Assembly (NCBI RefSeq): GCF_034259325.1 | Contig: NZ_JAXIVS010000016.1 | Location: forward strand, 62,001-126,000 | Direction of reading: 5' to 3' | DNA: 64,000 bases | From: Hyalangium ruber | Lineage (GTDB): Bacteria > Myxococcota > Myxococcia > Myxococcales > Myxococcaceae | Shown: in pieces, positions 16,921-20,877 of the stretch | Layout: each line of letters starts with the position of its first letter | Numbering within the stretch: the first letter of the stretch is position 1 | Position numbers and translations under genes: made by a program | Notes under the pieces: model-generated | Told to the model about the DNA's origin: nothing | Databases searched by the model: none | Seen by the model: the letters and a program-made list of their open reading frames with translations, nothing else

Positions 16921-18009
<1,089 letters not shown>

Positions 18010-18053
18010 CTCTCTACTCCTCCAGTCGTATGCGGTGGACCACCCCGGCCCAC

Positions 18054-18069
18054 CTGAACCCGCGTTCAG
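18054..18069 (-). promoter_or_regulatory. LexA-type operator upstream of recA
   Basis: On the recA strand the sequence is CTGAACGCGGGTTCAGG, a perfect CTGAAC-N4-GTTCAG palindrome. From memory, the LexA motif described for Myxococcus xanthus is CTRHAMRYBYGTTCAGS; this site differs at one position. It lies between a possible promoter and the recA start, where repressor binding would block transcription, so damage induction of this recA is likely. Confidence 0.65.
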
Positions 18070-18142
18070 AACGCGGTTCGTATTACTACGCGACGGGTTG
18101 CGTATAGTCCACCCCTCTGACACGGGGCTCGAGAAGAACAGT

Positions 18143-18958
18143 TCAGCTCTCGTGGTTAGCGAACAGGGCAGCGGCCCCCAGAGCGGCCAGGCCGGACACC
18201 AGGCCAGCGTAACCCGGCAGACTTCCTAGGAATACGGAGAGCAGGCCCGCCACCACCATCACCGCCAGCCCCATCTGGCGCATGGGGCTGCCCGGCTTGC
18301 CCCGGAGCACGGCCACCAGCGCCGCACACACCGCCCCTACCTCCAGCGTGAGCCCCGCACTGGGCATCGCGCCGTGACGTGCCAGGTCCAATACGAGCTG
18401 CAGCAGGCACCCTCCTGCCGCCACCGTCGCCGCCAAGGGCTTGATGCTGGAGCCCCGAGCTCGGCGGCCCGCCTTGAGCCGCACGCGCGCCAGGTCCTCG
18501 GGGCGGACCTCCAGCGCGTAGGGAAAGCCCATGGTCAGCAGGCCCTGAATGGCCGTCTCGTGGCAGGCGAAGCCGCCTCCATCCACGAGCCCCTCCAGCC
18601 TGTCGCTCTCGATGAGGTGGTGGAACCAGTCGGCCAGATGCCGTGAGCCCCCCTCGAGCACCATTTGCTCCAACAGCCGGTTGATGCGGTAGGCCAGCGC
18701 CTGCCGCTCCTCGCCGGTGGCGGCCTGGGCCTGCGCTATCAGCAGCAGCACCGGCAGCGGCGTGCCCGGCGGCGGCGTCTTCTCGCCGGGGAGCGCCTCG
18801 GAGCTCGGGAAGAGCGTCATCTCCCCTGGCTCCATGGCGATGTAGGGGAGCTCCTCTTCGGGCGGGTTCACCTCAACGGAGGGCGCCCACGCGGGCACCT
18901 CCGCTGGGAGCGCGTCGCGCACACCCTCGCCCGAGAGCTCGCTGGAACCCTCACCCAT
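18143..18958 (-). CDS. hypothetical membrane protein upstream of recA
   Basis: A 271-residue protein from the ATG at 18958 (an in-frame GTG 11 codons upstream is the alternative; neither has a clear ribosome site). It has an acidic, Pro-rich N-terminal 80 residues, a helical soluble region ([39 protein letters not shown]), and three or four hydrophobic segments in the last 100 residues. No family was recognised; proteins of this style are found in myxobacteria only as far as I can judge. It is on the recA strand, 133 bp upstream, and diverges from the ECF sigma operon. Confidence 0.75.
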
Positions 18959-19068
18959 AGTGGGAGGACGTGTGCTGGAGGCGGTCGCCACGCTGAAAAC
19001 TGTACCCAGGAGTGGTGCTGGGGTTCAAAGCGCACAGGCCCCGCAACTTTTCCAATCCAACAGGGTTG

Positions 19069-19677
19069 ATGCCCGACGTGGACGCGGATTCGGACGCACA
19101 ATTGATGCAGAGGGTGGCGGCAGGCGACCGCAAGGCGTTCGCCCTGCTCTTCGACCGCTACCACGCGAGCGTGGCGCGCTTCGCCCTGCGCTTCGTGGGG
19201 GACACGGCGCGGGCGGAGGAGCTGACGCAGGACATCTTCGTGAAGCTGTTCCGGAACGCGAAGGCCTACAAGCCCACGGCGCAGTTCAAGACGTTCCTGT
19301 TCCGGGTGGCGACCAACCACTGCCTCAATGAGGTGCGCCGGGGGGAATACCGGGTGACCCACACGAGCACGGCCCCCACGGAAGAGGACGCGCAGGGAGT
19401 GGACGTGGCGGGGCCCGAGGGAGAGCAGCCGGATGCGGCGGTGGCGGGGCGGGAGCTGGAGCGGGCCGTGGGCGAGGCGCTGAAGGGCATGAGCGAGCGG
19501 GAGCGAGCGGCCTTCACCATGTGCCGCTTCGAGGGCATGGCGTACCGGGACATCGCGGAGGCGCTGGAGGCGAGCGAGGCGGCGGTCAAGAGCCTCATCC
19601 ACCGGGCGACGCTGGCGGTGGCGCGGAAGATCGAGGAATTGCAGGCGGGCACGGCGCCCGCGAGGAGCAGGGCATGA
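19069..19677 (+). CDS. ECF RNA polymerase sigma factor
   Basis: A 202-residue sigma-70-family protein of the extracytoplasmic-function type. Region 2 is seen in LFDRYHASVARFALRFVGD, AEELTQDIFVKLF and TFLFRVATNHCLNEVRR; region 4 in MSERERAAFTMCRFEGMAYR and DIAEALEASEAAVKSLIHRA. The start at 19069 (MPDVDADSDAQLMQRV) fits the family start; the frame is open further upstream. It overlaps the anti-sigma gene by four bases (ATGA), the classical arrangement in which the membrane anti-sigma holds the sigma factor inactive until an envelope signal arrives. The target regulon is unknown; such factors often drive their own operon. Confidence 0.95.
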   Translation: MPDVDADSDAQLMQRVAAGDRKAFALLFDRYHASVARFALRFVGDTARAEELTQDIFVKLFRNAKAYKPTAQFKTFLFRVATNHCLNEVRRGEYRVTHTSTAPTEEDAQGVDVAGPEGEQPDAAVAGRELERAVGEALKGMSERERAAFTMCRFEGMAYRDIAEALEASEAAVKSLIHRATLAVARKIEELQAGTAPARSRA

Positions 19678-20141
19678 GCTGCACGTTCGAGGAAGACCTG
19701 ACCGCCTATATCGACGGCGAGCTGCCCGCGGCGCGTCGGGAGGAGCTCCAGGTACACCTGGGCACGTGCGCGGAGTGCCAGCGCACGGAGGCGCTGCTGC
19801 GGACCACCGTGGCCCGCATGGCGGAGCTGCCCGAGCCGGTGCTCTCGACGAACACCCGGAGGGCGGTGCTGGCGAAGGTGGACGCGCTGCCACCTCCATT
19901 GAAGGAGCGGCTGCTGGCGCTCCTGCGTCCGCCGGTGCTGGTGCCCTCGCTGGGGCTGGCGGCGGCGCTGGCGCTGGTGGTCTACGCCAGCCGCGACACG
20001 CAGGGCGTGGACGTGCCGGACGCGGGGACGCTGGAGCTGGCGGCGAACATGGAGCTGATGGAGGACTACGACGTCGTGGGCCTGGACAGCTTCGAGGACC
20101 TGGAGGTCGTCGAGAACCTCCACGAGCTGGAGGTGCAGTGA
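19674..20141 (+). CDS. zinc-finger anti-sigma factor (membrane)
   Basis: A 155-residue protein starting at the ATG that overlaps the sigma gene stop. The N-terminus is an anti-sigma ZAS/zf-HC2 domain: DLTAYIDGELPAARREELQ and the zinc ligands H-x3-C-x2-C in VHLGTCAECQR. A membrane segment (VPSLGLAAALALVVYA) follows at about residues 100-115. The outer part is short and very acidic (ELMEDYDVVGLDSFEDLEVV, ENLHELE). Its role is to bind the ECF sigma factor and release it on an envelope signal. The stop overlaps the next ATG by one base. Confidence 0.92.
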   Translation: MSCTFEEDLTAYIDGELPAARREELQVHLGTCAECQRTEALLRTTVARMAELPEPVLSTNTRRAVLAKVDALPPPLKERLLALLRPPVLVPSLGLAAALALVVYASRDTQGVDVPDAGTLELAANMELMEDYDVVGLDSFEDLEVVENLHELEVQ

Positions 20142-20635
20142 TGAAGCGCACGGGGGCAATCATCGCCGTGGTGGTGGCGCTGCTGGCGGGGACGCCGGGC
20201 CAGGCGCAGGAGACGGACAAGCAGCGGACAGCCGCCGAGCGCTTCGAGAAGCTGTCGCCCGAGCAGAAGGAGGCGCTGCGCGCGAAGCTGCGCGAGTTCA
20301 AGGCGATGCCCAAGGAGGAGCGGGAGCGCATCCGCGGCAACCTGGAGCGCTACAAGCGCCTGCCGCCCGAGGAGCGTGAGCGGCTCAAGGGCAACCTGCG
20401 CGAGTTCCAGCGACTGACTCCGGAGGAGCGGAAGCTGATGCGCGAGCGCTTCGGTGAGTTCCGCAAGCTGGATCCGGAGCGCCGGGCGGAGCTGCGCAAG
20501 CGGATGCGGGAGTACATGCGCGCGCACCCGGAGCGGCGCGAGCAGATGATGGAGAACATGCGCCGCTGGCGGCAGCTGTCGCCCGAGCAGCGCCAGCAGC
20601 TGCGTGAGCGCATGCGCGAGAGGCGGCGCCCGTGA
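20141..20635 (+). CDS. DUF3106-like exported basic helical protein
   Basis: A 164-residue protein with a signal peptide (MKRTGAIIAVVVALLAGTPGQAQ). The mature part is a charged helix built of about seven near-repeats of the form LSPEQ/LPPEERERLKxNLREFQR, the hallmark of DUF3106 proteins. It is extremely rich in Arg, Glu and Lys and strongly basic near the end. Such proteins often sit beside ECF sigma/anti-sigma pairs and may act as periplasmic sensors comparable with CpxP/Spy-like chaperones; that comparison is inference. It shares a 1-bp overlap with the anti-sigma gene and a 4-bp overlap with the next gene. Confidence 0.88.
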   Translation: MKRTGAIIAVVVALLAGTPGQAQETDKQRTAAERFEKLSPEQKEALRAKLREFKAMPKEERERIRGNLERYKRLPPEERERLKGNLREFQRLTPEERKLMRERFGEFRKLDPERRAELRKRMREYMRAHPERREQMMENMRRWRQLSPEQRQQLRERMRERRRP

Positions 20636-20877
20636 GGCGCGTTCTGGCCCTCTGGCTGGCCACCAGCCTGTATGCGGGCGCGGCCCTGGCGGGAGAACAG
20701 AAGCCCCCTGCCCCCCCTCCTCCCACCCGTGCCCCCGAGCCCGCGCCGGCACAGGGGGCGGACAAGCCCGAGCTGTCCGCGGAGGACCAGGAGGTGGTGG
20801 AGAACCTGGAGCTGCTCGAGAGCCTGGACGAGGCGGAGGACTTCGAGCTGCTGCTGGAGTTGTCCCGGGAGGAGTGA
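20632..20877 (+). CDS. small exported acidic protein, last gene of the ECF operon
   Basis: An 81-residue protein starting at a GTG that overlaps the stop of the DUF3106 gene (GTGA). It has a signal peptide (RRVLALWLATSLYAGAALA), a Pro-rich linker, and an acidic helical tail (QEVVENLELLESLDEAEDFE). This tail resembles the acidic C-terminus of the anti-sigma factor in the same operon (DLEVVENLHELE). It is likely a periplasmic partner; the opposite charge of the DUF3106 protein suggests binding, which is inference. No known enzymatic function. Confidence 0.8.
   Translation: MRRVLALWLATSLYAGAALAGEQKPPAPPPPTRAPEPAPAQGADKPELSAEDQEVVENLELLESLDEAEDFELLLELSREE

Follow-up and report, generated by a model that had tools for sequence, protein, structure and literature searches.

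An ECF sigma factor operon of Hyalangium ruber with a DUF3106 protein and a small acidic protein that resembles the anti-sigma tail

In the CnrYXH system of Cupriavidus metallidurans, metal on CnrX is thought to switch CnrY towards release of CnrH, as stated in an excerpt of PMC4598750, and in the RpoE–RseA–RseB(–DegS) system of Escherichia coli the excerpted text of PMC8103513 describes binding of RseB to the periplasmic part of RseA, with an envelope-stress output. The signature of class I zinc-binding anti-sigma factors is given, in a partial text of PMC7406223, as Hx3Cx2C in an N-terminal helical domain. Here we compare with these systems a four-gene operon of Hyalangium ruber (genome of 10.77 Mb; nearest named relatives among the genomes compared, a Myxococcaceae MAG and Corallococcus terminator), which lies in the window, that is, the whole 64,000-nt stretch of DNA that was analysed. 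On its 5′ side the minus strand carries a recA-like open reading frame (ORF; 16921–18123) and then a further ORF (18143–18991). The features of the operon are as follows.

19042–19067, plus strand: ECF-type promoter CGCAACTT-N13-GGGTT, an exact match and the sole one in the window on both strands
19069–19677, plus strand: ECF sigma factor (Sigma70_r2 and r4_2), start probably at GTG 19078
19674–20141, plus strand: anti-sigma factor of class I type (zf-HC2), with zinc finger HLGTCAEC, one membrane helix and an acidic C-terminal tail
20022–20138, plus strand: acidic anti-sigma tail, residues 117–155, conserved in 59 of 59 loci
20141–20635, plus strand: DUF3106 protein (PF11304), signal peptide (by eye) and basic helical repeats
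20632–20877, plus strand: small secreted acidic protein with GTG start, signal peptide (by eye), Pro-rich linker and acidic two-helix motif
20773–20865, plus strand: tail-like motif in the small protein (consensus of 31 rows), a profile match to the anti-sigma tail

Judging from sequence comparisons and predicted structures, we consider it somewhat better than an even chance (about 0.55) that the four genes form an envelope-stress ECF system under its own control, with the DUF3106 protein serving as a periplasmic co-regulator and the small protein mimicking the tail in free form.

Gene products and conservation of the operon

A preliminary description of this DNA had read the four ORFs as sigma factor, anti-sigma factor, DUF3106 protein and small protein, overlapping at every junction and bearing complementary charges; all of this holds, with overlaps of 4, 1 and 4 nt and net charges in the window of +17 for the DUF3106 protein from residue 24, −14 for the last 45 residues of the anti-sigma factor and −14 for the last 35 residues of the small protein. 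The product of 19069–19677 is an ECF sigma factor with sigma-70 regions 2 and 4 (PF04542, Sigma70_r2, 60.6 bits; PF08281, r4_2, 55.2 bits) and a TIGR02937 match of 92 bits against a cut-off of 42.9. The −10 element reaches 19067, 2 nt short of the ATG at 19069, so that translation of a nearly leaderless message probably begins at GTG 19078 instead. The gene overlapping it encodes an anti-sigma factor (zf-HC2, 39 bits) that, by the Hx3Cx2C form of its HLGTCAEC motif and its place beside the sigma gene, appears to belong to zinc-motif class I. Its structural model has a compact N-terminal helical part (helices 6–83), a helix at 86–106 that we take as the membrane helix, and short tail helices at 117–131 and 140–147, the tail being modelled with low confidence (pLDDT about 60). 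The tail has the consensus NLExxEDYDVxGLxSxEDLEVVAxLHELE (31 rows), with D142, L149 and L152 invariant over 59 loci and a net charge of −17 to −8 across the family loci.

The third gene encodes a clear member of DUF3106, scoring 86.2 bits with PF11304 against a curated cut-off of 24.3, and 31 of 31 relatives match the same family at E ≤ 0.001. The earlier picture of a basic repeat helix is borne out by the charge and by an AlphaFold2 model containing helices only (pLDDT 82.5, pTM 0.50): seven helices recur at 18-residue spacing, and the model shows eight helices past the signal peptide. Across the family loci the net charge of the protein ranges from +8 to +19. Searches with the model returned no member of the CnrX/Spy/CpxP fold family, either from Foldseek (2 matches, best E 8.3) or from VIA (10 chains aligned, best Z 2.4); sequence and profile searches of solved structures gave weak matches to other proteins only, with no CnrX chain at E ≤ 1, and a search against plasmids gave no match. 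DUF3106 is also known from other Proteobacteria, where it neighbours ECF genes. In the literature searched no paper names DUF3106 or PF11304, alone or with a sigma factor, and no title among the literature matches listed for anti-sigma tails and small periplasmic proteins describes this system.

Metal sensing was considered on account of a match to PF13801 (Metal_resist; 32.9 bits against a cut-off of 29.2) and was rejected as noise, because only 9 of 31 relatives share that match, fewer than match FliG_N (16 of 31), IBN_N (15) or the HMG box (12), and because the 31 DUF3106 rows contain no His or Cys column at 80% conservation or above.

The small protein matches no Pfam or NCBIfam family. 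Its motif has the consensus LSxEDxEVVENLELLExLDxAxDLELLxELS (31 rows); 58 loci show no variation at E54, L59, L61 or L62, and the net charge of the last 35 residues lies between −16 and −7 across the family loci.

Strong anti-sigma relatives (E ≤ 8e-14) were found in 59 of 96 genomes of the same family, and all 59 loci were used (two others, L032 and L033, are the same contigs as L003 and L009 and were dropped before counting). Alignment across homologous operons, a check set beforehand with a motif confined to the strain as its refuting outcome, showed that this outcome does not hold and that the motif is conserved well beyond the strain: the acidic tail is present in 59 of 59 loci and the small protein in all 58 readable ones, the 59th (L018) stopping at a contig edge in a genome that carries the small-protein motif at the edge of another contig. 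In all 59 loci DUF3106 is the next gene, overlapping by 1 or 4 nt. The overlap of sigma and anti-sigma genes is 4 nt in 57 of the 58 loci where it was measured, and the small gene starts with a 4-nt overlap in 54 of 58 as assigned. In these figures each start codon is the one closest to the stop before it, a choice biased towards short overlaps; the start of the small gene is uncertain in L034, L041 and L054 (+25, +10 and +13), and the small protein of L017 comes from a separate ORF assignment. Several other loci have a possible sigma start at the position matching GTG 19078. Of 29 loci (L034–L062; flanks of at most 3 kb, much less in seven), 12 have a recA match upstream, as do L032 and L033, which suggests an old position of the operon and its loss where it is missing.

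Across 195 genomes of the phylum, the small-protein profile matched 65 (E ≤ 0.001; 61 within the family), DUF3106 99 (E ≤ 0.001; 59 within the family) and the tail profile 89 (E ≤ 0.01; 59 within the family). Within the family the tail-profile and DUF3106 genomes are the identical 59 of 96, and the two extra small-protein genomes (G019 and G026) have their match at a contig edge. The tight link of DUF3106 to the motif, which supports the first reading, extends through the phylum, with DUF3106 present in 88 of the 89 tail genomes (29 of 30 outside the family). The one exception, G156, has an in-frame TAG inside its tail match (G156:C523:5343-5486) and no DUF3106 match; this is perhaps a decaying copy.

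Outside the family we examined 38 of 40 DUF3106 genomes (E ≤ 0.001), leaving out G151 and G175, both weak. An acidic-tail anti-sigma gene, with a tail net charge of −3 to −17, lies in the same cluster in 34 of the 38 loci; three others (L133, L148 and L156) are cut by contig ends, and L145 has DUF3106 and a small gene with no anti-sigma gene nearby. The small gene changes place among families, as follows.

Family f2: fourth in 9 of 10 loci, the tenth being cut
Family f6: after DUF3106 in both loci
Families f11, f17 and f19: third, before DUF3106
L160 (f28) and L161 (f31): before sigma
L147 (f7): unlinked

The small gene was not found in L146, L154, L159 and L162, and is absent, within the stretch fetched, from the f3 loci; since these have tail and DUF3106 alone, the small protein seems dispensable in places. 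On the decoy reading set out below, the module would be old and phylum-wide, its pairing kept though the decoy gene moves.

Several neighbours of these loci deserve mention. In f3 an exported barrel-like protein of about 520–545 residues follows DUF3106 in all loci that reach that far (9 of 10); such proteins (312–545 aa as read) lie 3′ of DUF3106 in L134–L143 (f3) and 5′ of sigma in L149 and L151–L153 (f11), the seven scanned had no Pfam family over the cut-off, and they possibly represent the envelope function served. In L150 a FecR-domain protein (1061–2221) is encoded between the small gene and DUF3106. In the genome of L147 (G155) the unlinked acidic small-protein motif lies close to the C-terminal end of an ORF whose neighbour encodes a membrane protein.

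The promoter and its probable targets

The promoter, with at most one mismatch, precedes sigma in 46 of 57 upstream regions and occurs in 0 of 1,140 shuffled ones. In other families a site with up to two mismatches, often ending in GTGTT, lies before sigma in 10 of 25 loci, a count made with no shuffle control. We searched for the exact pattern in 16 of the 59 operon genomes and in 26 of the 35 family genomes lacking the small-protein profile. It occurred 37 times in 15 of the 16 operon genomes (reversed-pattern control, 0) and 5 times, in 3 genomes, among the 26 operon-less ones (control, 7). Promoter sites are nearly absent from the operon-less genomes tested, and their occurrence tracks the operon. 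One of the five operon-less occurrences, L195 (G077:C1:1637961), is a relict of the operon, in which the promoter and roughly 25 sigma codons are followed by unrelated sequence; G077 is a case of operon loss. With this promoter before its own sigma gene, the operon may be an autoregulated ECF system.

We inspected 30 of the 37 exact occurrences by their neighbouring ORF. The operon itself accounted for 13, and 16 of the 17 others sit directly 5′ of an ORF with an export-signal-like start (by eye); the occurrence at L165 has no clear gene downstream. The promoter-bearing genes were these.

104-aa family: 3 occurrences, one in the H. ruber genome
78–80-aa family: 5 occurrences
EF-hand protein type: 3 occurrences (Pfam checked for L175)
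Two alike lipoprotein-like proteins: L178 and L188 (no Pfam family for L178)
Beta-lactamase-family protein: L191
224-aa charged protein: L163
Lipoprotein-like ORF: L192

By coordinates, none of the remaining seven exact occurrences lies at the operon of its own genome, and two precede genes of the 104-aa and 78–80-aa families. The H. ruber members of these two families lie at G000:C2:481934 and G000:C3:444015. Both families are exported and charged, and neither the 104-aa (L171, 1581–1892) nor the 78–80-aa (L184, 1225–1458) protein had a Pfam family over the cut-off.

For each of these two families, promoters were counted over its best 30 loci. A promoter with no more than one mismatch precedes the 78-aa gene in 19 of 23 operon genomes, H. 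ruber included, and in 0 of 7 operon-less genomes, where the gene is still present and where 4 of the 7 have a decayed −35 yet a retained −10; three operon genomes of genus g3 (G002, G003 and G005) have the gene without the promoter. For the 104-aa gene the promoter was found in 16 of 29 with at most one mismatch and in 26 of 29 with at most two, and the single operon-less case, G093 (85% complete), has this gene with the promoter. Among shuffles, a site with one mismatch or fewer occurred in 0 of 600 for each gene. For the most part the sites disappear together with the operon, pointing to this sigma factor as their reader; another ECF sigma factor could also read the motif. Small secreted helical or charged proteins, including the 104-aa and 78–80-aa families, are the probable targets. 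The conserved promoter, the probable targets and the near absence of sites from the operon-less genomes tested are new to this follow-up.

Relations among the tail, the small protein and DUF3106

The preliminary description proposed that the anti-sigma tail and the small protein share a motif. Aligning a profile of 31 tails with one of 31 small-protein motifs in hhalign gave a probability of 91% (P 9e-7). In a rerun the score was 26.4, a value reached by none of 200 column shuffles (best 18.1) and none of 200 shuffles keeping the hydrophobic pattern (best 24.8); a control pairing with a reversed profile scored 10.1. By these comparisons, then, the likeness exceeds composition, and that part of the proposal stands. 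The register is ambiguous: cyclic shifts of the small-protein profile bring the score to as much as 32.4, above the true register, so that both sequences are built of a repeated acidic helix unit, EDxE-VV-xxL-xxL. The preliminary description had matched tail helix 2 to small-protein helix 1; in hhalign the first helices align with each other, as do the second.

Pairwise comparison of each tail with the small protein of its own locus gave, for the 58 family loci, a median z of 4.3; in 53 of these pairs no more than 10 of 200 shuffles did as well, in the other five more than 10. Outside the family, 12 of 14 pairs from seven families had 0–6 of 500 shuffles as good, the two weak pairs being L158 (10 of 500) and L161 (48 of 500). 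Since the motif is acidic and leucine-rich, the likeness is possibly convergent.

The charges of the three proteins vary together. DUF3106 and tail charge gave a Spearman coefficient of −0.58 over 92 loci and −0.63 over 12 family means, figures that ignore relatedness; DUF3106 charge gave −0.65 against the tail and −0.77 against the small protein. To allow for ancestry, we computed independent contrasts for 56 family loci, on a tree built from sigma plus anti-sigma, with sign-flip p values. Uncorrected over seven pairs, DUF3106 charge was inversely related to that of the tail (r −0.42, p 0.006) and of the small protein (r −0.38, p 0.045), and tail and small protein gave r 0.31 (p 0.10). Controls with sigma gave r 0.09 (p 0.61) for DUF3106 and −0.08 (p 0.64) for the tail; with the anti-sigma N-terminus, the cytoplasmic part, the tail gave 0.14 (p 0.15) and DUF3106 gave r 0.26 of opposite sign (p 0.025, likewise uncorrected over seven pairs). 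The inverse covariation fits electrostatic partners, but it is modest, and weaker for the small protein.

The earlier idea of a charge-based competition thus keeps its inverse DUF3106/tail relation, with a weaker one for the small protein, and loses its purely electrostatic form: among the positions conserved most strongly in tail and small protein, many hold Leu, Val, Ala or Gly. For that reason we expect amphipathic docking between the basic repeats with an electrostatic share, charge explaining at most a part of the putative interaction.

These results bear on three other explanations. The likeness could be chance or convergence between unrelated acidic leucine-rich helices, with DUF3106 a general periplasmic chaperone co-regulated by chance. 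The low complexity of all three proteins, the ambiguous register and some weak pairwise scores would suit this; we regard it as improbable in view of the 0 of 400 column shuffles, the co-occurrence of tail and DUF3106 in 88 of 89 genomes, the charge compensation, and the fact that in the H. ruber genome the tail and small-protein profiles match this operon only, save for one tail match at E 0.42.

The tail might instead be the site of a site-1 protease, with the small protein a soluble decoy substrate providing feedback and DUF3106 shielding the tail as RseB does. This would account for a free copy that resembles the tail and follows a textbook precedent, RseB on RseA with DegS cleavage (in the excerpt of PMC8103513). 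Against it, the operon lacks a protease gene, and charge covariation with DUF3106 is not what a protease-only role predicts, which makes it a poor candidate.

Thirdly, DUF3106 might hold tail and small protein together in a co-inhibitor complex without competition, the small protein being a stabilising structural subunit. With eight helices, the DUF3106 model could accommodate two acidic partners; two acidic stretches are present in the tail and likewise in the small protein, and the genes are co-encoded in most lineages examined. Such a complex leaves the likeness between small protein and tail unexplained. In addition, the f3 loci yielded no small gene, and in one f7 genome this gene is unlinked. 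We think this explanation rather unlikely, at perhaps one chance in a few.

Proposed mechanism and comparison with known systems

In the autoregulated envelope-stress system that we favour, the basic helical repeats of DUF3106 would bind the acidic amphipathic helices of both the tail and the small protein. Bound to the tail, DUF3106 would hold the anti-sigma factor in its inhibiting state; a periplasmic signal would pull it away and free the sigma factor, which would then transcribe its own operon and the genes for small exported charged proteins. As a free tail mimic, the small protein would set how much DUF3106 is available, and with it threshold and shut-off. More tentatively, and as a possibility that we do not favour over its negation, this exported free copy of the anti-sigma's sensory tail may act as a titrating decoy, with DUF3106 as the receptor of both, and with threshold and shut-off set by the relative amounts of DUF3106, tail and decoy, all products of the one autoregulated operon. 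If the decoy reading is true, the operon would embody a simple threshold device based on charge and helices, of which we know no example in other ECF systems. The analysis gives a testable role, with probable ligands, to DUF3106, a family with no paper in the literature searched, and it supplies a promoter and candidate targets with which the signal can be sought by means of a reporter.

Proteins of the Spy/CpxP/ZraP type are exported, helical and charged, with an envelope-stress output. The DUF3106 protein is like them in being exported, helical and charged, and unlike them in that no solved relative of it was found. The CnrX/Spy/CpxP fold is a hooked helical hairpin; CnrX binds metal through conserved His/Cys ligands in its periplasmic helical domain, and CnrY has no zinc finger. 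DUF3106 differs from CnrX in having no conserved His or Cys column in 31 rows, a comparison confined to His and Cys ligands (the only Met column being the start Met). To our knowledge CnrYXH includes no free tail mimic. It is similar, as far as the excerpted source describes it, in combining an ECF sigma factor (CnrH), a membrane anti-sigma factor (CnrY) and a third, periplasmic protein (the sensor CnrX).

RseB is a beta-rich, two-domain protein, not an all-helix one, and DUF3106, all-helical in its model, does not share its fold. Compared with RpoE–RseA–RseB, the tail here is only about 40–50 residues long, and the operon has an extra exported tail-like protein and no protease. The two systems would nonetheless resemble each other, within what the excerpt on RpoE covers, in a periplasmic operon protein bound to the periplasmic part of the anti-sigma factor, as proposed here for DUF3106, and in an envelope-stress output.
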